From contig NC_011899.1 in NCBI RefSeq assembly GCF_000020485.1, forward strand, positions 1,644,501-1,708,500: a DNA stretch of 64,000 nucleotides, given 5' to 3'. The first letter of the stretch is position 1. Each line of letters starts with the position of its first letter. Shown here piece after piece: positions 2,260-12,568 of the stretch. This DNA is from Halothermothrix orenii H 168. GTDB lineage: Bacteria; Bacillota; Halanaerobiia; Halanaerobiales; Halothermotrichaceae. A program made the position numbers and the translations under genes. The notes beneath the pieces are model-generated. The model was not told the origin of the DNA. It made no database searches and worked only from the letters and a program-made list of their open reading frames with translations.

Positions 2260-2868
2260 TCATTCATTCTCTGTATATCTATCTTTTATGACCTTTTTTA
2301 TCTTGGAGAGGGCCCTGGCCCGGTGGCTGATTTTATTTTTGGTCTCAAGGGTTAATTCAGCCATAGTTTTACCATATTCAGGGACATAAAACAGGGGATC
2401 ATAACCAAAACCATTATCACCCCGGGGTTTTTCCATAATTATCCCCTCACAGCTTCCAGTAACGGAAATATCTTCGCCTAATTCAGGGTCATATAAAACC
2501 ATAACACACTTAAACCGGGCCCCTCTCTGGCCAGCCGGGACCCCTTTTAATTCTTCCAGCAGCTTTTTATTATTATCTTCATCACTGGCCCCTGCCCCGG
2601 CATAACGGGCTGAATAGACCCCGGGTTTTCCCTGCAAGTAATCTACTTCAAGGCCAGAATCATCGGCCAGAGTCAAAAGACCCGTCTCCCGGGCTCTGGT
2701 CCGGGCCTTTTTGAGGGCATTTTCATAAAAGGTTTCCCCATCTTCCTCAACCGGGGGCAGGGAGAAATCGTCAAGGCCAACAATCTCTATATCAAGGTCA
2801 TTAAGGTATTTTTTTATCTCCCTTATCTTCCCCTGGTTACCACTGGCTACAAGGAGTTTAAGGGGCAT
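2260..2868 (-). CDS. rdgB: XTP/dITP pyrophosphatase (RdgB/HAM1)
   Basis: House-cleaning nucleotidase of 202 aa that hydrolyses non-canonical purine triphosphates (XTP, dITP, ITP) to monophosphate and pyrophosphate. The HAM1 family signatures are clear: SGNQGKIREIK at the N-terminus, the metal-site stretch LADDSGLEVD, GVYSARYAG, and GDNGFGYDPLF. Length is normal for the family. Its ATG overlaps the rph stop codon in TAATG, so the two are translationally coupled; rph-rdgB is a widespread pair. Confidence 0.97.
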   Translation of the reverse strand: MPLKLLVASGNQGKIREIKKYLNDLDIEIVGLDDFSLPPVEEDGETFYENALKKARTRARETGLLTLADDSGLEVDYLQGKPGVYSARYAGAGASDEDNNKKLLEELKGVPAGQRGARFKCVMVLYDPELGEDISVTGSCEGIIMEKPRGDNGFGYDPLFYVPEYGKTMAELTLETKNKISHRARALSKIKKVIKDRYTENE

Positions 2869-3608
2869 TATTCCTCAATCCCCAGGCTCTTTTTCTGGAA
2901 GGAAACCAGTTCCCTGATTCCCTTTTCAGCCAGGTCCATCAAAGTATTCATCTGGTCCCGGGAGAAGGGGAATTTCTCGGCAGTACCCTGAATTTCAATA
3001 ACCCGACCATCTTCGGTCATAACTATATTCATATCGACCTGGGCCTGAAAGTCTTCTTCATAACACAGATCGAGCAACATCTCACCATCGACTACACCAA
3101 CACTGGTGGCGGCCATAAAACTATTTAACGGTGATTCTTCTAAAACTCCTTCTTCAATCAGATAATTAATGGCGTCAACTAAAGCCACATAGGCCCCGGT
3201 AATAGAAGCGGTTCTGGTTCCACCATCGGCCTGGATAACATCACAATCTACCCAGATGGTTCTCTCACCCAGCTTACCAAGGTCAACAACGGCCCTGAGA
3301 CTCCGGCCTATCAACCGCTGAATCTCCTGGGTCCGCCCGCTCAACCGGCCCCTGGCCACTTCCCTGATGGTTCTGCTATGGGTAGACCGCGGTAACAGGG
3401 AATATTCAGCCGTTAGCCAGCCAGTATTCTGTCCCCTTAAAAAGGGAGGAACACTTTCCTCCACTGAGGCTGTGCAGATAACCTTGGTATCACCGGTTTC
3501 AATCAATACTGAACCTTCTGCATACTTGGTATATTGCCTGCTTATTTTGACATCACGTAGCTGGTCATTTTTACGACCATCTACCCGGAGATTATTGGTT
3601 TCACTCAT
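2868..3608 (-). CDS. rph: Ribonuclease PH
   Basis: Phosphorolytic 3'-5' exoribonuclease that trims tRNA 3' ends; forms a hexamer in the cytoplasm. Visible family features are [12 protein letters not shown] near the N-terminus, the phosphate/RNA-binding [19 protein letters not shown] stretch, the [14 protein letters not shown] motif and a normal length of 246 aa. The frame opens at a GTG (3620), but GGGAAGG is placed correctly for the ATG at 3608 (MSETNN), which is chosen here. Stop and rdgB start overlap by one base. Confidence 0.97.
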
Positions 3609-3696
3609 ACAATAAGACACCTTCCCTTTTTTTGTTTTTTCTTATTATTATCCTTATAATATATTTTACAACTATAATTCGGGATATGGTTACAAA

Positions 3697-4593
3697 TTAT
3701 AGCTTTGTAAGCTGGAACTGACTGTGCTCATCATCCCCCACCAGCCCGGCCATAAGGTAAAAACCGGTGGCAGGGTCATATTTAAAATCCATCAATTTAA
3801 AGCCTTCGATTTCCCCTGTCCTCCGGACATGGATCCGGGGACCGGTACATGAATATTCCTTATCTCCTATTTTAATATGATTATCATCCCTGTAACGGAC
3901 CCTGAGGTCTCTATCAATGTATTCCTTAACCTCATTTTCCACATCTTTAATAGAAAAGTCGGGTTTTTCATCAAACTGAAGAACAAAACCACTTTTAACA
4001 TCACTGTGATAAGGAGTCCGGGTATAACCCCTTTTCTCAATGGCCATGGCCGTCAGGTCTTCAGCGGTATGGGCCATTCTCCGGTATTTGATTGAATTAA
4101 AGACAATTTTAGCGATCTCTTTAGAAAAGGGACCGAAGACCCCGGGTCTTGTAACAATAACTTCTTCACCGATCCCAACCAGCATTTCAGGGTTTATATT
4201 GAGATGTGATTCTATCAGATCATAGTGTTCCACCACTACCCGCCGGTCTTTTTCAATGGCCTTCTCTATGGCTTCAGCCAGCTGCCAGGGCTGGGTAAAT
4301 GCGGTTTCAAACCTGATATCAACATGGTAGGTATGACTGGTAAACTTCCCTTCCTGATAATCATTGTATACCGGTAAGGGACGGATATTTATCCCCTCAT
4401 CATCATTGGTCAGGGTTAAACCGGGAAACATCCCCTTGATAAGCAGGGATTTCCCGGCCCCGGCATCACCTATCAACCCGATCAATTTATCATTGGGATG
4501 CATGTATGACTGGGATATTCTATTTCCTAGCTGTAGGAGCCTCTCCTTACCCCTTGGAGCAAAGAAAACTGAATGGGCAAAACTATCTATCAT
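3697..4593 (-). CDS. P-loop protein of the 'alanine-tRNA synthetase second additional domain' type
   Basis: A 298-aa cytoplasmic protein. After the opening FAPRGKERLLQLGNRI comes a Walker A motif GDAGAGKS (about residues 42-49) followed by LTNDDEGINIRPLP. The C-terminal third, with 'TGPRIHVRRTGEIEGFKL', resembles the nucleic-acid-like domain that gives this clostridial family its name. It is not an aminoacyl-tRNA synthetase: no class II core is present. The function is unknown; an ATPase or kinase role is inferred from the P-loop. It stands alone between rph and the glutamate operon, preceded by tandem repeats. Confidence 0.6.
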   Translation of the reverse strand: MIDSFAHSVFFAPRGKERLLQLGNRISQSYMHPNDKLIGLIGDAGAGKSLLIKGMFPGLTLTNDDEGINIRPLPVYNDYQEGKFTSHTYHVDIRFETAFTQPWQLAEAIEKAIEKDRRVVVEHYDLIESHLNINPEMLVGIGEEVIVTRPGVFGPFSKEIAKIVFNSIKYRRMAHTAEDLTAMAIEKRGYTRTPYHSDVKSGFVLQFDEKPDFSIKDVENEVKEYIDRDLRVRYRDDNHIKIGDKEYSCTGPRIHVRRTGEIEGFKLMDFKYDPATGFYLMAGLVGDDEHSQFQLTKL

Positions 4594-4932: not shown

Positions 4933-5244
4933 TTAAACCATTATGGTTAAAAGGGGAGCATGCTGCTGAGCACCATAAACATCCCTGTCACCGGGCGAGC
5001 CAGCCACCACTGGCCTCTTGATAGTAATCTTTATAGCCCGGGCCGGATCAAAGTTTATGATTGAAATAACATCATCTTCAGGAATTTTATAGAGGTTACT
5101 GATAAGCCCTTTATTTATAATTTTTTCATTCCTGACCCTGTTATAACTTTCTTCATCTTTGAAAATAAGGTCAAAGGTTAGTTCATAGGGTCCGGCATTC
5201 TTACTCCGGATTACGTTAACCAGTTGAGTAATCGGGGTTCCCAT
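4933..5244 (-). CDS. DUF4387 protein paired with the AtuA-like protein
   Basis: A 103-aa protein beginning with 'TQLVNVIRSKNAGPYELTFD', typical of the DUF4387 family that almost always follows, or is fused to, an AtuA/DUF1446 protein. No catalytic motif is known. Its ATG overlaps the upstream stop in TAATG, implying coupled translation and probably a 1:1 complex. It is the last gene of the methylaspartate operon, so a role in the glutamate-to-pyruvate pathway is inferred, not shown. Confidence 0.75.
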   Translation of the reverse strand: MGTPITQLVNVIRSKNAGPYELTFDLIFKDEESYNRVRNEKIINKGLISNLYKIPEDDVISIINFDPARAIKITIKRPVVAGSPGDRDVYGAQQHAPLLTIMV

Positions 5245-6629
5245 TATGTTAACCTCCCGTCTTCTGGAATAGTATCCTCTGTCATAAACCTGACAGGGAA
5301 ATACTCAAGGGGATCATCGACCTGCACCAGGTGGTGAAGGTTAAATTCATAGACTTCACCAGCCTTAATATCTGAAGGTGAATAAGGGAAAGCCAGGTTA
5401 CCGGCTGTAGCCACCCGTCCTGGATAACCATAATGGAGCAAGGTCGATCTGGTAAAACTACAGATACTGTTGGCCCGTTTCTGGGTATCGGCAATAACTT
5501 CAATAACAATACCGAGTTCATGGGCGGTTATCTCCTGGACCGGTTCCAGTTTCCCCATAACCCCGTTTTTACCATATACCCTGAAATAAATATTATATTT
5601 TTCCCGGTCCTCACTGAAACTTTCGTTAACTATCCTTTTTACTTCTTTTAAGATATCATCTATCTGGCGTATCATAATGGGATCCCTGGTTCCAGCAATA
5701 GATATAGTCCGGTATCCAACAAGCTTTGCCCCTTCAAGCTTTATAGTATAATCTTCATCAGGGATAAATTTACTACCGGTAACCTTAACCCGCCTCTCAT
5801 CTATCTGTTCAAATTCAGTCTCTGTCAAATCGATAACCCCACCGGGACCGTAAAGTTTATAGGGGTTGCTCTTTTCATACAGGGTATGAGCTGAAACCGA
5901 AGTCACCGTACACCTTCTCTCCGGGTTCAGGGGCTCAAGTATAAAGTGATCCTGCCCCAGTATCCCCAGCATACAATCACTCCCACTTCCCGGGTCAGCA
6001 GCAATACTGGCACATTCCAGGATTTTACCCATATGTAGAGCCAGACCTCGTTCAAAACCCTTCAGGATAGGGTAGGCGGCAAAGACAGTGGGGTCATAGG
6101 CCCGCCCGGCCAATATCAGGTCAGCTCCACCCTTGAGAGCCTCAATAATAGGTTCAATACCCATCTGCCCCACAATTCTCGTGGCCCTGTCAATTTCTTC
6201 TTCATTAACCTCTTCAGCGGGATAGAGGGGAGATAGTTTCCCTTCCCTTAACCTGTTTTTAACCTCTTCCCGGTCAATCTCAGCCCCAATGGTGGCTATT
6301 TTAAGCTTAAAGCCCTCTTCATTTATTATCTCCTTTACAATATCGAGACACCAGTTCAGATGGGCACTGGCTCCGGAACCCCCGGCCGTACCAACCAGTA
6401 CGGGTATATTTAGCTTTTGACCGGCCTCTATCATTAAGTGCAAATCCCTCTTTACGGCGTTGCGGTCTGTAAAGGAAAGGCCTGACCCCAGATAATAAGG
6501 TCCGGGGTCGGTGGAGCCACCATCGACCGCAATGACATCTGGCTTCCGGTCCAGCCCCCTTTCAAAAGACTCTACTGGAAAACCATACCCCAGTATAGCA
6601 GTTGGAGAAAGCACCTTGATTTTATCCAT
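5244..6629 (-). CDS. AtuA-like (DUF1446) protein in the methylaspartate operon
   Basis: A 461-aa cytoplasmic protein of the family named after AtuA (acyclic terpene utilisation). Glycine-rich motifs seen are 'VDGGSTDPGPYYLGSG' near residue 36, 'GTAGGSGASAHL' near 82 and 'LAGRAYDPTVFAAYP' near 178. The biochemical activity of the family is unsettled. Here it follows methylaspartate ammonia-lyase and precedes DUF4387, so it may act on mesaconate or a later C5 intermediate, for which no hydratase or citramalate lyase is present in the window. That link is inference from operon position. Confidence 0.75.
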   Translation of the reverse strand: MDKIKVLSPTAILGYGFPVESFERGLDRKPDVIAVDGGSTDPGPYYLGSGLSFTDRNAVKRDLHLMIEAGQKLNIPVLVGTAGGSGASAHLNWCLDIVKEIINEEGFKLKIATIGAEIDREEVKNRLREGKLSPLYPAEEVNEEEIDRATRIVGQMGIEPIIEALKGGADLILAGRAYDPTVFAAYPILKGFERGLALHMGKILECASIAADPGSGSDCMLGILGQDHFILEPLNPERRCTVTSVSAHTLYEKSNPYKLYGPGGVIDLTETEFEQIDERRVKVTGSKFIPDEDYTIKLEGAKLVGYRTISIAGTRDPIMIRQIDDILKEVKRIVNESFSEDREKYNIYFRVYGKNGVMGKLEPVQEITAHELGIVIEVIADTQKRANSICSFTRSTLLHYGYPGRVATAGNLAFPYSPSDIKAGEVYEFNLHHLVQVDDPLEYFPVRFMTEDTIPEDGRLT

Positions 6630-6746: not shown

Positions 6747-7991
6747 TTATGCCTCTCTGGCCTTTAAGATTGTCAAAACCCGCTGCATTTCGTTGTAAAC
6801 GATCATTAAACCTTCGTCAACCCCCATCCCGGGTTTGGCCAGTATCTGATCCGGTCTGGTGGCAAGTGCGATATCTGTGGAGATCTGGGCTGAACGATCA
6901 GTCTCATTACAGGTTCCACCCTGATAAGCGCCAATCCCCTTCTCTTTACAGTACAGGACCGCCTCAATGGTATTATTTATCCCCCCGAGGTCAGGGGTTT
7001 TAATCTGGACCATATCGGCCGCCCTGGCATCAACAAACTCCTTGATATCCTCCAGGGTATTACACCATTCGTCGGCAACAAGGTCGACCCCGATACCTGA
7101 AGCCTGAAGGCGTTCTTTTAACATTACCAGCTGCTCTATCTGGCCCTCTTTACTCCCGGCATCCATCGGCCCCTCAATCCTTATTTTAAAGGGGTGGGCT
7201 GCTTCTTCAAGTCTCCCCAGGTATTCAGCCATAAGGTCAGGGTCATCATTGAATGCCAGACCAATGGTACCATAAACATCAAGGTGAAGGGATGGCTTAT
7301 AGTCCTCACCACCGATTTCGAGAACCCTCTTTTTAAGCCACCGGACGTAATCCAGTAATTTTTCACCCTTTTCCCCCAGTTTTGTCCTGACATTATTTAT
7401 TAGCCCATGGGGGAGAACATCAACATGTTTTATAATAATCTTATCGGCATTGGCGTAACGCTCATCACCTGTCTGGGCAAAAATGGGAACAGGTTCCGGT
7501 ATTATATCAAGGCCGTATTCGTTGGCCACCACCTCAGTCCGTGTCAATTTTTCCGCTTTAGCCACAGCATCCAGGAGGGCCTGGGTTATACCATATCTAA
7601 GAGCGGTATGAAGCCTCTTACCATTGAGGGTCAGCATATCTACCTTTTCCGCCAGTCTCTTAAAGCTATCGAGGTCTTCCCCCTCCAGCCGGGGGGCAAT
7701 TTCCCTGTTAATAACAGGAATAAAGTCCCTGGCCAGAAAGAGAGGATCCCGCCCCCCGGCCCCCGAATACTGGACTGCAGCACAGTCTCCATAGGCCATC
7801 TGACCATCATCGAGTATAAGAATTACCGATATCGATTCACCGGCCTGCCTGATAGATGTAAAACCCGGGGTCTCCACCTCTCCTTTATAAGTGAAGCCAT
7901 CCTCCCTGGCATTATGTTTAATCGCAGCCTGATCATCGAAATAAAAGCCGGTAAGGCCCGGTGAAGCCAGAACTTTTTTTATTGTTGCCAA
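6747..7991 (-). CDS. Methylaspartate ammonia-lyase
   Basis: Converts (2S,3S)-3-methylaspartate to mesaconate and ammonia, the second step of glutamate fermentation by the methylaspartate route. An enolase-superfamily enzyme; all active-site regions match the clostridial enzyme: the His of KHVDVLPH, the metal ligands in HLDVYGTIG, RIEGPMD and VADEWCN, and the catalytic Lys in MVQIKTPDLGG. The frame opens at GTG 8000, but AAAGGAG is well spaced only for the TTG at 7991, which also aligns with the known N-terminus (414 aa). It follows glmE by about 170 bp in the same operon. Confidence 0.97.
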   Translation of the reverse strand: MATIKKVLASPGLTGFYFDDQAAIKHNAREDGFTYKGEVETPGFTSIRQAGESISVILILDDGQMAYGDCAAVQYSGAGGRDPLFLARDFIPVINREIAPRLEGEDLDSFKRLAEKVDMLTLNGKRLHTALRYGITQALLDAVAKAEKLTRTEVVANEYGLDIIPEPVPIFAQTGDERYANADKIIIKHVDVLPHGLINNVRTKLGEKGEKLLDYVRWLKKRVLEIGGEDYKPSLHLDVYGTIGLAFNDDPDLMAEYLGRLEEAAHPFKIRIEGPMDAGSKEGQIEQLVMLKERLQASGIGVDLVADEWCNTLEDIKEFVDARAADMVQIKTPDLGGINNTIEAVLYCKEKGIGAYQGGTCNETDRSAQISTDIALATRPDQILAKPGMGVDEGLMIVYNEMQRVLTILKAREA

Positions 7992-8166
7992 CAGGATCAC
8001 TCCTTTATCTTTTTGTTATACCCGTTAACCAGATACCATATGTGTTCCCCGTGTTTTTTCATCCTTCTGCTCCTTTTCAAATAGTTCTATGTTAATCACG
8101 TTCCATATATATCCATTAACCAGGAGAGAGCCTTTTATTCTAAACCACCTCAGCTCCTACTCTCTT

Positions 8167-9618
8167 CTAACGGGGTCGGCCGACTAGCATTCCCTTACCG
8201 ATGGCATAAATATCATCGATAACCATCTGAAAATCAACCTCTCTATCCTCAACCTGACCCCGTTCTGAAAGTTTTTCCCGGTGGTATTCTTTAACATCGT
8301 GACTAAAGGGGAGGTTACCAAAATTAAGGTACCTTACTGCTCCCTGGTTATCCCGGGCCGGTAATACCTGACCGGCATTGTGTTTACTCGGGGCAAAGGG
8401 GATATCCATAACCCCGGCACTGAAAGCCCTGACAGTTCCCTGGACCAGGTCACCGTCACCGAGTTCTAAGACCCGGTTGAGGATCTGTTCAGTCTCCCTG
8501 ATTATCATTTCCTTTTCCTCATCCATATTGTGGGTCTGCTCCAGACCCTGATCCTGTAGCATATTTACAATCTGTTTAGTAGTTTTAAGTCCAGCTGCAT
8601 TGGCCTCTTTGGTAGGAATCCCCATAGCCTCATGGGGGGTTTTGACAATAACTTTAGTAGCCCGGCTTAAGGAAGCAGCCGCCGCTCCCCAGGAAATTAC
8701 AGCATAGGCCTTTGATTCATCCTGGGGAAAGCCACCCATCCACTGGTGAAAGACAGTAGTAACCATAACATCATCATACCCAAATTTATCTAGATAATCC
8801 CGGGCCAGTTCCCTCAAGCTCTGAATGGCAGCAACATCCTGTATTAAGTTTCCATTCTGACCATAACCGAGACTTAAGTATTTAACCCCCTGTCTGGCTG
8901 CCAGTAAAGCCTCTATGATGGCCACACTATGAGAGATAGATGGGGGAACCAGGGTTCCGGTCAGGGGACCAAAGGGCTCCCTGTTAATATTAACACCGTG
9001 TTCCTGATAATATCCAACCAGACGGTCCACATATTGCCAGTACCTGATAGTATCTTCAATGGCGACACTCTTGGCATAGGGGATATTATAGGAAATGCCA
9101 CCCCCTTCAAAATCAGTAAAACCACCGGCCAGGGTAATCTCGGCCAACAGCCGGGCATCAGGGGTACCGTGCCTGACCTGAACCGGAACATTGACAGCCT
9201 CATTAACCTGCCGGCAGACCTTGACTCCATGGTTTACAGCTGGAAAACCATTGAGCATGGAGCGCCCCATTTCCCGGCTTTCCTTTATGCCATTTTCCGC
9301 CTCCCGGTACTGATTTTGACGGGTGTAACTGTCTATGGTAGTCGGTAAAAGGTCAGCCTCACCTTCTTCCCTTAAATACTGAAGCAAGCCAATATGTTCC
9401 TCAGGTAGAGCCACTCCGGCCCGGGGCTGGATTAAAGTCTTACCCACCTGATCTGCTTTCATTAAGGTATTAACCATAATCCGTTCCTCAGGAATACTCT
9501 TATGGTAAGCAACAGCTTCATCAAAGTCAACTTCTTTCCCTGTTGGCCAGGCCTTTAAAACCTCTTCCCTCTCCTTTAAAAACAACTCTTCATCAAGGCG
9601 TTTGTCTTTAATAGTCAT
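8167..9618 (-). CDS. glmE: Glutamate (methylaspartate) mutase, catalytic subunit E
   Basis: Large subunit of adenosylcobalamin-dependent glutamate mutase, which rearranges L-glutamate to (2S,3S)-3-methylaspartate by a radical mechanism. The 483-aa length equals the clostridial GlmE. Recognisable stretches are the arginine-rich substrate region '[16 protein letters not shown]' and the TIM-barrel segments '[13 protein letters not shown]' and '[15 protein letters not shown]'. It works with GlmS, which carries the cobalamin, and GlmL, which reactivates the complex; all three are adjacent in the order S-L-E. Confidence 0.97.
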
Positions 9619-9631
9619 ATTAACCTCCCCG

Positions 9632-11026
9632 CTAAATTTCTTTGATATATTTTTTCATCAGTTTGAGGCTTTCCTCCGGCCTTACTTCACCCAGTAATCC
9701 GGCAGCAGCCATAATATATTTACTATCGATCATAATATCAGGACTTACCGGAGCCAGTAATTCAGGATCATCATGGTTATCGTACAGGGTTCCCGAAAGG
9801 ATATAACCGGGGTCAGGATTATTTACAATTATCCCCCCGGTTCCGATTAAATATTCAATCCGGGACAGGTCTTTCCCCTCCTGAATCAGGCTAGCCCCCA
9901 TCGGGGTATAAACTGTCTTCAACCTGCCTACATGGCGGGATACCCCCATTCTGGCAGCATGCCTTCCCATCAGGTTATCAACCACCTGTTCCCCCTCATT
10001 CTGTGGTATATAGTCAGGCTCATCATGCAGGGTGGATATATATTTAACAATACTATCACAGTCGAAACTTTTTACTCCCATTTCCTTCAATTCATCAACA
10101 AATTTATTAATACCAACGGCCTCTATAAGAGTCGGGGCATTATACCTCATACCGAGATCCCCTTCAACAGTTCTTTTAACATACGGCTCCTCAAGGCCCC
10201 GCAGATTAACATTACTCCGGGTTGGCTTCCCACTGGCAATAGAATGGACATCAGTCGTGGCCCCACCAATATCAACCACCATAAGTTCCCCCAGTCCTTC
10301 CTCATCACCGGTTCCGTCAGCTAAAAGGGATGCTGCGTTAAGAACCGCAGCCGGAGTAGGCATAATGACACCATCGATAAAATTATTGACCCGGTCAAGC
10401 CCCTTGGCCTGAATTATTTTATTGAGGAAGATTTCCCTAATTGTCTCCCGGGCTGGCTGTATATTCAACTCCTCAAGGCGGGGCATAACATTTTCGGTTA
10501 CATGAACCTCTTTCCCGGCTACAGAAAGTATTTTTTCAACTTCATCGGCCACAACCCGGTTTCCGGCTACAATAATGGGCTGTTCCAGATTACATTTAGC
10601 CAGTTTTTTAGCATTATGGATAATTACATCCTTATTACCACCATCGGTACCCCCCGCCAGGAGAATAATATCTGGTTTTATCCCCTCAATCTCCCTGACC
10701 TCAGAATCGGTCAATTCAAAACTGTAGGTTTTTAAAACCTTACTCCCGGCCCCCAGGGCCGCCCTCCGGGCGGCTTCAGCGGTAAGATCGGGCACGAGCC
10801 CGATGGCCACAATTTTCAAACCACCGGCAGCACTACTGCAGGCCAGTTTGTAACGGGCTTTCTCCCAGTCTTTAATACCGGCTAAAGCCTCCTTAAGGCC
10901 GATAGTTACATCCTCAAAGACAGTGGTATGGGCCTGGCTTTGACCCCTGATTTCAATTTTTTCTAAATCTATTAAGGTAACTTTAGTATAAGTGCTCCCG
11001 ATATCAATTAATAAGGCTGTTTCCAT
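9632..11026 (-). CDS. glmL: Glutamate mutase reactivase/chaperone GlmL
   Basis: ATPase of the ASKHA (actin/Hsp70-like) fold that exchanges damaged cobalamin in glutamate mutase. N-terminal phosphate-1 motif [16 protein letters not shown] and a second '[14 protein letters not shown]' motif near residue 250 are the nucleotide-binding signatures. About 464 aa, as in Clostridium. A GTG at 11038 would overlap glmS by 11 bp, but the ATG at 11026 lies one base after the glmS stop and has AGGGGTG correctly spaced, so it is preferred. It sits between glmS and glmE. Confidence 0.96.
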
Positions 11027-11027
11027 C

Positions 11028-11468
11028 TCACAAGACACCCCTGGATTTAAGGTCTTCTTCTAAATCAGCAATGGCTTCTTCAGGCAGGGTACCTGGAGGA
11101 TAGACCCTGTCAAAACCCATATCCAGGAACAGCTTTCTCACCTTTTCCCAGTCCTGTTTTCCAACTACCAGGTTACCGCCAACATAAATTAAAATATCCC
11201 CGATTCCGGCCTCAATACATTTCTCCCTGAGGCCCCGACAGTCCATCTCACCATGGCCATAAAGAGATGAAACCCAGATAGCCTCGGCCCCGGTTTCAAT
11301 GGCCGCAGATACAAATTCCTTCTGAGAAACCATAACCCCGATATTGGCTACATCAAAACCGGCTTCCCTCAAGGCATGCTCCAGAATCTGATTACCGACC
11401 GCATGAACATCAGCTCCGATAACTCCCAGAACTACAGTAGGTTTGTTGTCATCATTTTTGCCCGCCAT
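11028..11468 (-). CDS. glmS: Glutamate mutase cobalamin-binding subunit S
   Basis: Small B12-binding subunit (146 aa) of glutamate mutase. The DxHxxG motif that supplies the base-off cobalt ligand histidine is present in [15 protein letters not shown], followed by the conserved [12 protein letters not shown] and the GG of [10 protein letters not shown]. The end '[14 protein letters not shown]' is typical of the family. First gene of the glm operon, preceded by a strong GGGGGAG ribosome site and an AT-rich tandem repeat. Not to be confused with glucosamine synthase, which shares the symbol. Confidence 0.97.
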
Positions 11469-11602: not shown

Positions 11603-12568
11603 TTAAATTTGTTTAATATCAAGAAGGGCCATTTTAAGAAGGTTGACCGAACCCCGGTCCGGGGTATACTCAAAGGGTATTACCTGCCTTTCGCCACCGG
11701 CCAGTTTTTGAATCTCCTTAAACCGATGGGGGGAGGTTATTAAAATATCATACCTTGCTATAAATTCCTCTAATTCTTCTTTATCCTCGGTAGTAGTATA
11801 ATTAAGTTTGAAATTATTTAAACTGGTTTTGGTAAGGGACCTCTCCACTTCCCGGGCAAAGTAATCAGAAAGACATATTAACCCGATACTGGAACCCGGC
11901 TTTATCCGGGCCAGTTTAACGATGGTGTCCATTTTCGGTTCCAGGTTCATATCTATAACTTCTTTATCCATTCCAGACACAAACTCTTCAACCTCCTGGA
12001 GGTGGAAGGGGGTAGTAACGATCATCTCTACCCGGTCCAGGATCTTTCTGGTTTTTTGAGGATTTTCCCTAAGGTCACCTATTAACACCGGGATACAGGC
12101 AATACCGGGGTCAAGACCGGCATCCACCATCAGGGCTGAAAGCTGCTCCTGGTTACATTCAATAAAGGCGACTTTTATCTTACTGAGCATCTCCTCTTTT
12201 TCTTTAGCCCTGACATAGGCAATAGTTAAGAAATCATCAAGGCTAAACCCCAGGCCGATGGCCTCCTCCATGGCCAGATCGATTATCTTCAAGAGCTTAT
12301 CCTTGCGGCTCGGCTCCCTGACTCCTGATACCTTACCGGCTATAAATGTCCCCTTTCCCTGCTGTGAAGATACAATACCCTCTGCCTCAAGTTCTTTATA
12401 GGCAGTACTGACCCTGTTCCGGCTTACCTTTAGTTCTTCAGCCAGTTCCCGTTCCGGAGGTAGGCGATCCCCCCGGGATAAAATTCCTCGCTCCACCATT
12501 GTTTTAATCTGATTCTTAATCTGAACATAAATAGGCACTGCCGACTCCCTGTCAACCTTTATTTGCAT
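11603..12568 (-). CDS. GntR-family regulator of the glutamate operon
   Basis: A 321-aa transcription regulator. Residues 1-75 form a GntR winged helix (VPIYVQIKNQIKTMVERG, LPPERELAEELKVSRNRV, GKGTFIAG). The following ~230 residues are neither a UTRA nor an FCD domain; two alternating alpha/beta halves ('MIVTTPFHLQEVEEFV', 'SIGLICLSDYFAREVERSL') suggest a two-lobed effector domain, possibly distantly periplasmic-binding-like. It is transcribed just ahead of glmS (134 bp), so control of glutamate fermentation is a reasonable inference. The ligand is unknown. Confidence 0.85.
   Translation of the reverse strand: MQIKVDRESAVPIYVQIKNQIKTMVERGILSRGDRLPPERELAEELKVSRNRVSTAYKELEAEGIVSSQQGKGTFIAGKVSGVREPSRKDKLLKIIDLAMEEAIGLGFSLDDFLTIAYVRAKEKEEMLSKIKVAFIECNQEQLSALMVDAGLDPGIACIPVLIGDLRENPQKTRKILDRVEMIVTTPFHLQEVEEFVSGMDKEVIDMNLEPKMDTIVKLARIKPGSSIGLICLSDYFAREVERSLTKTSLNNFKLNYTTTEDKEELEEFIARYDILITSPHRFKEIQKLAGGERQVIPFEYTPDRGSVNLLKMALLDIKQI

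Follow-up and report, generated by a model that had tools for sequence, protein, structure and literature searches.

Which reaction do the two genes that follow methylaspartate ammonia-lyase (MAL) in the methylaspartate cluster of Halothermothrix orenii H 168 contribute, and is it a step of the pathway itself? The window analyzed here is the whole stretch of 64,000 nucleotides at C1:1644501-1708500, in a genome of one contig of 2,578,146 bases. The initial annotation had located an AtuA-like/DUF4387 gene pair in a methylaspartate operon, and both open reading frames are indeed found directly after glmS, glmL, glmE, and MAL, with which they form one minus-strand cluster in that order. The cluster and its immediate neighbors are as follows:

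11603-12568, minus strand: GntR-type regulator of the cluster (PF00392), which adjoins glmE in many other loci too
11028-11468, minus strand: glmS, B12-binding subunit of glutamate mutase (NF002612, 229 bits)
9632-11038, minus strand: glmL, glutamate mutase accessory protein (NF040745, 647 bits)
8167-9618, minus strand: glmE, catalytic subunit of glutamate mutase (TIGR01503, 781 bits)
6747-8000, minus strand: MAL, methylaspartate ammonia-lyase (TIGR01502, 598 bits, exceeding the cut-off)
5244-6629, minus strand: AtuA-like large subunit of 461 amino acids, putative cmlA (an outlier of PF07287; matches 9ERQ_A)
4933-5244, minus strand: DUF4387 small subunit of 103 amino acids, putative cmlB (PF14330; matches 9ERQ_B)
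3697-4593, minus strand: fusion of a TsaE-like P-loop domain and a SAD/AlaX-type tRNA-editing domain, which accompanies glmE

The glm and MAL genes scored well over the cut-offs of their curated models. The genes of the pair share a strand and overlap by one base, at position 5244, and PF07287 and PF14330 each identified one protein in the H. orenii genome. A scan of the cluster for promoters and terminators revealed no clear operon boundary. Beyond the downstream end of the cluster, another minus-strand gene (233-1489) encodes an AraC-type regulator that carries a PocR sensory domain (PF10114).

Each protein of the pair returned one strong match among solved structures, and the two matches belong to one complex (9ERQ/9EVF), whose chains A and B were deposited as "citramalate lyase" subunit A (cmlA) and subunit B (cmlB), a name that rests on the PDB depositors' labels. 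In phmmer searches of solved structures, the large subunit, hereafter CmlA, matched 9ERQ_A at 540 bits (E 2.4e-161; residues 4-446 on 5-446), and the small subunit, CmlB, matched 9ERQ_B at 106 bits (E 1.1e-29), with identities to the deposited chains of 55.8% and 52.6%, respectively. The predicted model of CmlA (mean pLDDT 85.5) aligned with 9EVF_A over 448 residues (TM 0.90, Z 47.0, rmsd 2.5, E 1.2e-61), and the fold search with this model gave no other whole-chain match among solved chains. Matches outside 9EVF were partial and ferredoxin-like, covering residues about 304-427 only, and we give them no functional weight. Alignment of 35 CmlA sequences, among them those of E. coli O157 and 9ERQ_A (the latter in its printed part), showed 119 invariant positions, and 38 CmlB sequences share 24, including the motifs RSKN and YGAQQH; these counts describe overall conservation. 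A literature search for CmlAB, DUF4387, 9ERQ, and 9EVF, confined to one library of papers, found none. The deposited CmlA and CmlB chains share 92% and 85% identity with ECs_0760 and ECs_0759 of E. coli O157 Sakai, respectively, so the deposited proteins probably come, judging by sequence, from a relative of E. coli. The CmlAB family is already represented by a solved structure, then, and the H. orenii pair is a further member. Altogether, we consider it very probable that the AtuA-like/DUF4387 pair is CmlAB, a two-subunit citramalate lyase, and we infer this activity from orthology, fold, gene order, and the replacement of CitF described below. A role as a pathway accessory, proposed in the initial annotation, is not needed.

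The Pfam name of the large subunit might instead suggest an AtuA-type enzyme of acyclic terpene metabolism, or a protein unrelated to the pathway that sits here by accident. The PF07287 match (83.7 bits versus a cut-off of 22.8) is confined to two partial stretches, however, whereas that to 9ERQ_A covers almost the full chain; the small subunit matches DUF4387 (PF14330, 140 bits, E 4e-41). The neighborhood also argues against such a reading, as the pair comes after MAL in distant phyla too. We surveyed 80 glmE loci from named genomes, many of them cut by contig ends, and an AtuA-like gene followed MAL in 36 of these, from several phyla, accompanied by DUF4387 wherever the locus extended far enough. 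E. coli O157 Sakai has the order glmS-glmL-glmE-MAL-AtuA-like-DUF4387-transporter-fumD. Because the same arrangement recurs in these 36 loci and in E. coli, the position of the pair beside MAL is not a matter of chance, and the likelihood of a terpene enzyme or an accidental neighbor is negligible.

The initial annotation noted no mesaconase or citramalate lyase gene in the window, and the genome's single class I fumarase alpha gene, identified as its only PF05681 match (C1:1095653), and its single CitF gene (C1:502036) both lie outside it. Class I fumarases are an enzyme type known to act as mesaconases. Searching the rest of the genome for a mesaconase, as the initial annotation had proposed, led to this class I fumarase alpha/beta pair, in which the alpha gene is followed by the beta gene and then by a malic-enzyme-like gene, the last read from the sequence by eye. 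Iron-dependent fumarases commonly hydrate mesaconate (PMC4682846), and the H. orenii genome paper reported the enzymes of the citric acid cycle to be absent except for a fumarase (PMC2626281). Since the cycle is otherwise missing, this lone fumarase is a natural candidate for the mesaconase and probably serves as such.

The corresponding search for a citramalate lyase recovered a citC-citD-citE-citF-citXG set at C1:499.7-504.9 kb, unlinked to the glm/MAL cluster, whose CitF branches with E. coli citrate lyase and not with cluster-linked CitF in a small tree holding one citrate-lyase reference. This second, classical lyase could also carry out citramalate cleavage in H. orenii. Within L085 1301-10874 (G000:C1:495-505 kb), the set adjoins four tandem genes that look like ADP-ribosylglycohydrolases when the sequence is read by eye.

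It was also suggested initially that the pair supplies the next enzyme of the pathway, possibly a mesaconate-processing one. That it is a pathway enzyme at the expected place agrees with our results, but the mesaconate step does not, given the fumarase pair elsewhere, the matches to CmlA and CmlB, and the replacement of CitDEF. A mesaconate hydratase would suit a pair that comes directly after MAL in a cluster with no adjoining mesaconase gene. However, 56 of the 57 genomes that encode both glutamate mutase and MAL also have a fumarase alpha gene, and the pair itself lacks PF05681 and PF05683 domains in a Pfam scan. The exception, G109, carries CmlB on a contig that ends 2.8 kb after this gene, where its sibling G293 has the fumarase, so that the missing fumarase is accounted for by the contig end. 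Furthermore, in 21 glmE loci a fumarase pair sits beside CmlAB, leaving no need for a second mesaconase; mesaconase activity has been measured for FumD of E. coli O157 (PMC4682846), whose gene belongs to a cluster with the pair; and the structure labels say citramalate lyase. We therefore rejected the mesaconase identity on the strength of the fumarase pair in this genome and of the near-universal fumarase alpha in MAL-containing genomes, and regard it as extremely unlikely.

The glmE survey, likewise proposed in the initial annotation, bears directly on which enzyme the pair replaces. CmlAB occurred in 36 of the 80 loci and CitF in 15, with no locus containing both (Fisher p 6e-5), while among the 57 MAL-containing genomes, CmlB was found in 48, CitF in 10, and both in 4 (p 4e-4); the loci are related by descent, so these p-values overstate independence and are descriptive. 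Class I fumarase accompanied CmlAB in 21 loci and CitF in 11. Since CmlAB and CitF never share a glmE neighborhood and fumarase is found beside either, CmlAB stands in for the classical citramalate lyase and not for mesaconase. Three genomes (G064, G070, and G130) have MAL and neither an intact CmlB nor CitF, and in G130 a fragment of CmlA and CmlB lies on another contig. MAL is in two parts several kilobases apart in two loci (L093, G074:C24; L092, G130:C30), and the CitF of G074 carries a stop. The split MAL genes, this stop, and the CmlA/CmlB fragment of G130 represent apparent pathway decay. DUF4387 also occurs in 23 of the 242 genomes that have no MAL call, so the family is not confined to the methylaspartate pathway.

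CoA-ester routes for C5 dicarboxylates are known in other bacteria and archaea, and one related locus, from a Halanaerobiaceae MAG (L006, 12704-18075), resembles such a route. Its gene order is MAL, TsaE/SAD, rph, rdgB, a CitE-like lyase, and SucC-like and SucD-like CoA ligase genes, with no CmlAB, and it probably represents a citramalyl-CoA route, a third way to the same cleavage. In another locus, L014, the pair is absent and a CitE-like match is present. We asked, then, whether the H. orenii pair acts on citramalyl-CoA or mesaconyl-CoA and not on free citramalate, a reading to which the existence of such routes and the ligase and lyase genes of L006 lend some plausibility. However, a domain scan of the proteins of the H. 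orenii cluster detected no CoA transferase or CoA ligase; L006 has the ligase and lyase without CmlAB, so that the two look like alternatives; and 9EVF is titled as an ADP-pyruvate, not a CoA, complex. A CoA ester as the substrate is therefore very unlikely.

With CmlAB as citramalate lyase, this pathway of glutamate fermentation would run as follows. GlmES glutamate mutase, maintained by GlmL, would convert glutamate to 3-methylaspartate, which MAL would deaminate to mesaconate; hydration by the unlinked class I fumarase pair would form (S)-citramalate, and CmlAB would complete glutamate breakdown by cleaving this to pyruvate and acetate. CmlAB would need neither the CitD acyl carrier nor the genes for CitD maturation, and Pfam searches found no CitD, CitE, or CitF among the proteins of the cluster. 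Carrier-independent cleavage of (S)-citramalate is thus the most likely activity. How it might proceed is suggested by the title of 9EVF, which names an ADP-pyruvate complex and makes a nucleotide-linked mechanism plausible. Speculatively, a nucleotide would take over the part of the carrier thioester by converting the leaving carboxylate to an acyl phosphate, and a retro-aldol cleavage would then release pyruvate and the acetyl unit. One specific version, which we put forward tentatively and hold to be somewhat less than an even prospect, has ATP forming an acyl phosphate at the carboxylate of the acetyl unit and the retro-aldol step yielding pyruvate and acetyl phosphate, whose phosphoryl group would be returned to ADP or which would be released for ATP synthesis. 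Alternatively, the ADP ligand of 9EVF may be regulatory or incidental. If it holds, a nucleotide-linked CmlAB would be a lyase whose mechanism substitutes for the carrier-thioester chemistry used by citrate and citramalate lyases.

The gene that follows the pair (3697-4593) encodes a two-domain protein with a predicted structure of mean pLDDT 85. In this model, residues about 4-155 form a TsaE-like P-loop ATPase domain (Z about 10), and residues about 167-290 resemble AlaX and the alanyl- and threonyl-tRNA synthetase editing domains (Z 13-14). A sequence-profile search of solved structures returned Walker-motif matches only, and the Pfam model tRNA_SAD matched 24 of 31 family members weakly and fell below its cut-off in the protein from the window. 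The Walker A motif is kept in the family, as are H175 (31/31), D179 (25/31, with E in 5), C249 (31/31), and H255 (29/31), positions that we take to match the AlaX zinc ligands. Across 299 genomes, all 58 carriers of the TsaE/SAD gene also have a GlmE-family gene, and in 51 genomes the TsaE/SAD gene is no more than 15 kb from glmE; a 55-residue fragment match also turned up in one additional genome, which lacks GlmE. Because nine of the carriers have no MAL gene above the cut-off, the TsaE/SAD gene tracks the glutamate mutase family and not the later steps. At least three of these nine (L098, 6016-10600; L099; L102) have a block comprising a GntR regulator, a diverged GlmE, TsaE/SAD, rph, and rdgB, and glmS and glmL were not detected near these blocks. 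In H. orenii, rph (RNase PH) and rdgB-like genes likewise follow the TsaE/SAD gene (within 2260-4593, minus strand), and among the 80 glmE loci, TsaE/SAD and rph occur together in 18, with rph never found without TsaE/SAD. One idea is that the protein might be a trans-editing factor that clears a misacylated amino acid, for example 3-methylaspartate, from tRNA. The blocks with diverged GlmE do not simply fit this idea, and a partner of GlmE is another candidate role.

The assignment of CmlAB matters first for annotation. AtuA-like/DUF4387 pairs are currently named "unknown function" or "acyl-CoA synthetase," for example, and even "3-methylaspartate ammonia-lyase" is used: in E. coli Sakai (L097 21934-23618), ECs_0760 (CmlA) carries this last name and ECs_0759 (CmlB) is annotated as an acyl-CoA synthetase; both annotations look wrong. 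According to a 2015 report, what becomes of citramalate in the E. coli O157 cluster was unclear (PMC4682846), and the assignment suggests where citramalate goes in clusters of this type. Reading MAL-adjacent pairs as citramalate lyase would close the methylaspartate pathway in genomes without CitDEF, and it would account for the lone H. orenii fumarase as the probable mesaconase.

Among known systems, AtuA shares a Pfam family with CmlA, with a score above the cut-off, and the relation is distant. The clostridial mesaconase MesAB is a class I fumarase. MesAB and FumD act at the neighboring step of the same pathway, but they belong to a different family from CmlAB, and in H. orenii the fumarase genes are unlinked to the cluster. 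The classical clostridial citramalate lyase is CitDEF, matured by CitC, CitX, and CitG. In the methylaspartate pathway it probably catalyzes the overall reaction proposed here for CmlAB, but it is built from other protein families, and the H. orenii cluster has neither the CitD carrier nor its maturation genes; the two never occupy the same glmE locus. The closest counterpart is the CmlAB of 9ERQ/9EVF, from which the H. orenii pair differs in sequence (56% and 53% identity), in its origin in a thermophilic halophile, and in having the fumarase gene outside the cluster. Both subunits, their sizes, and their pairing are nonetheless the same, the predicted large subunit aligns at TM 0.90, and the E. 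coli orthologues follow MAL as the pair does in H. orenii.
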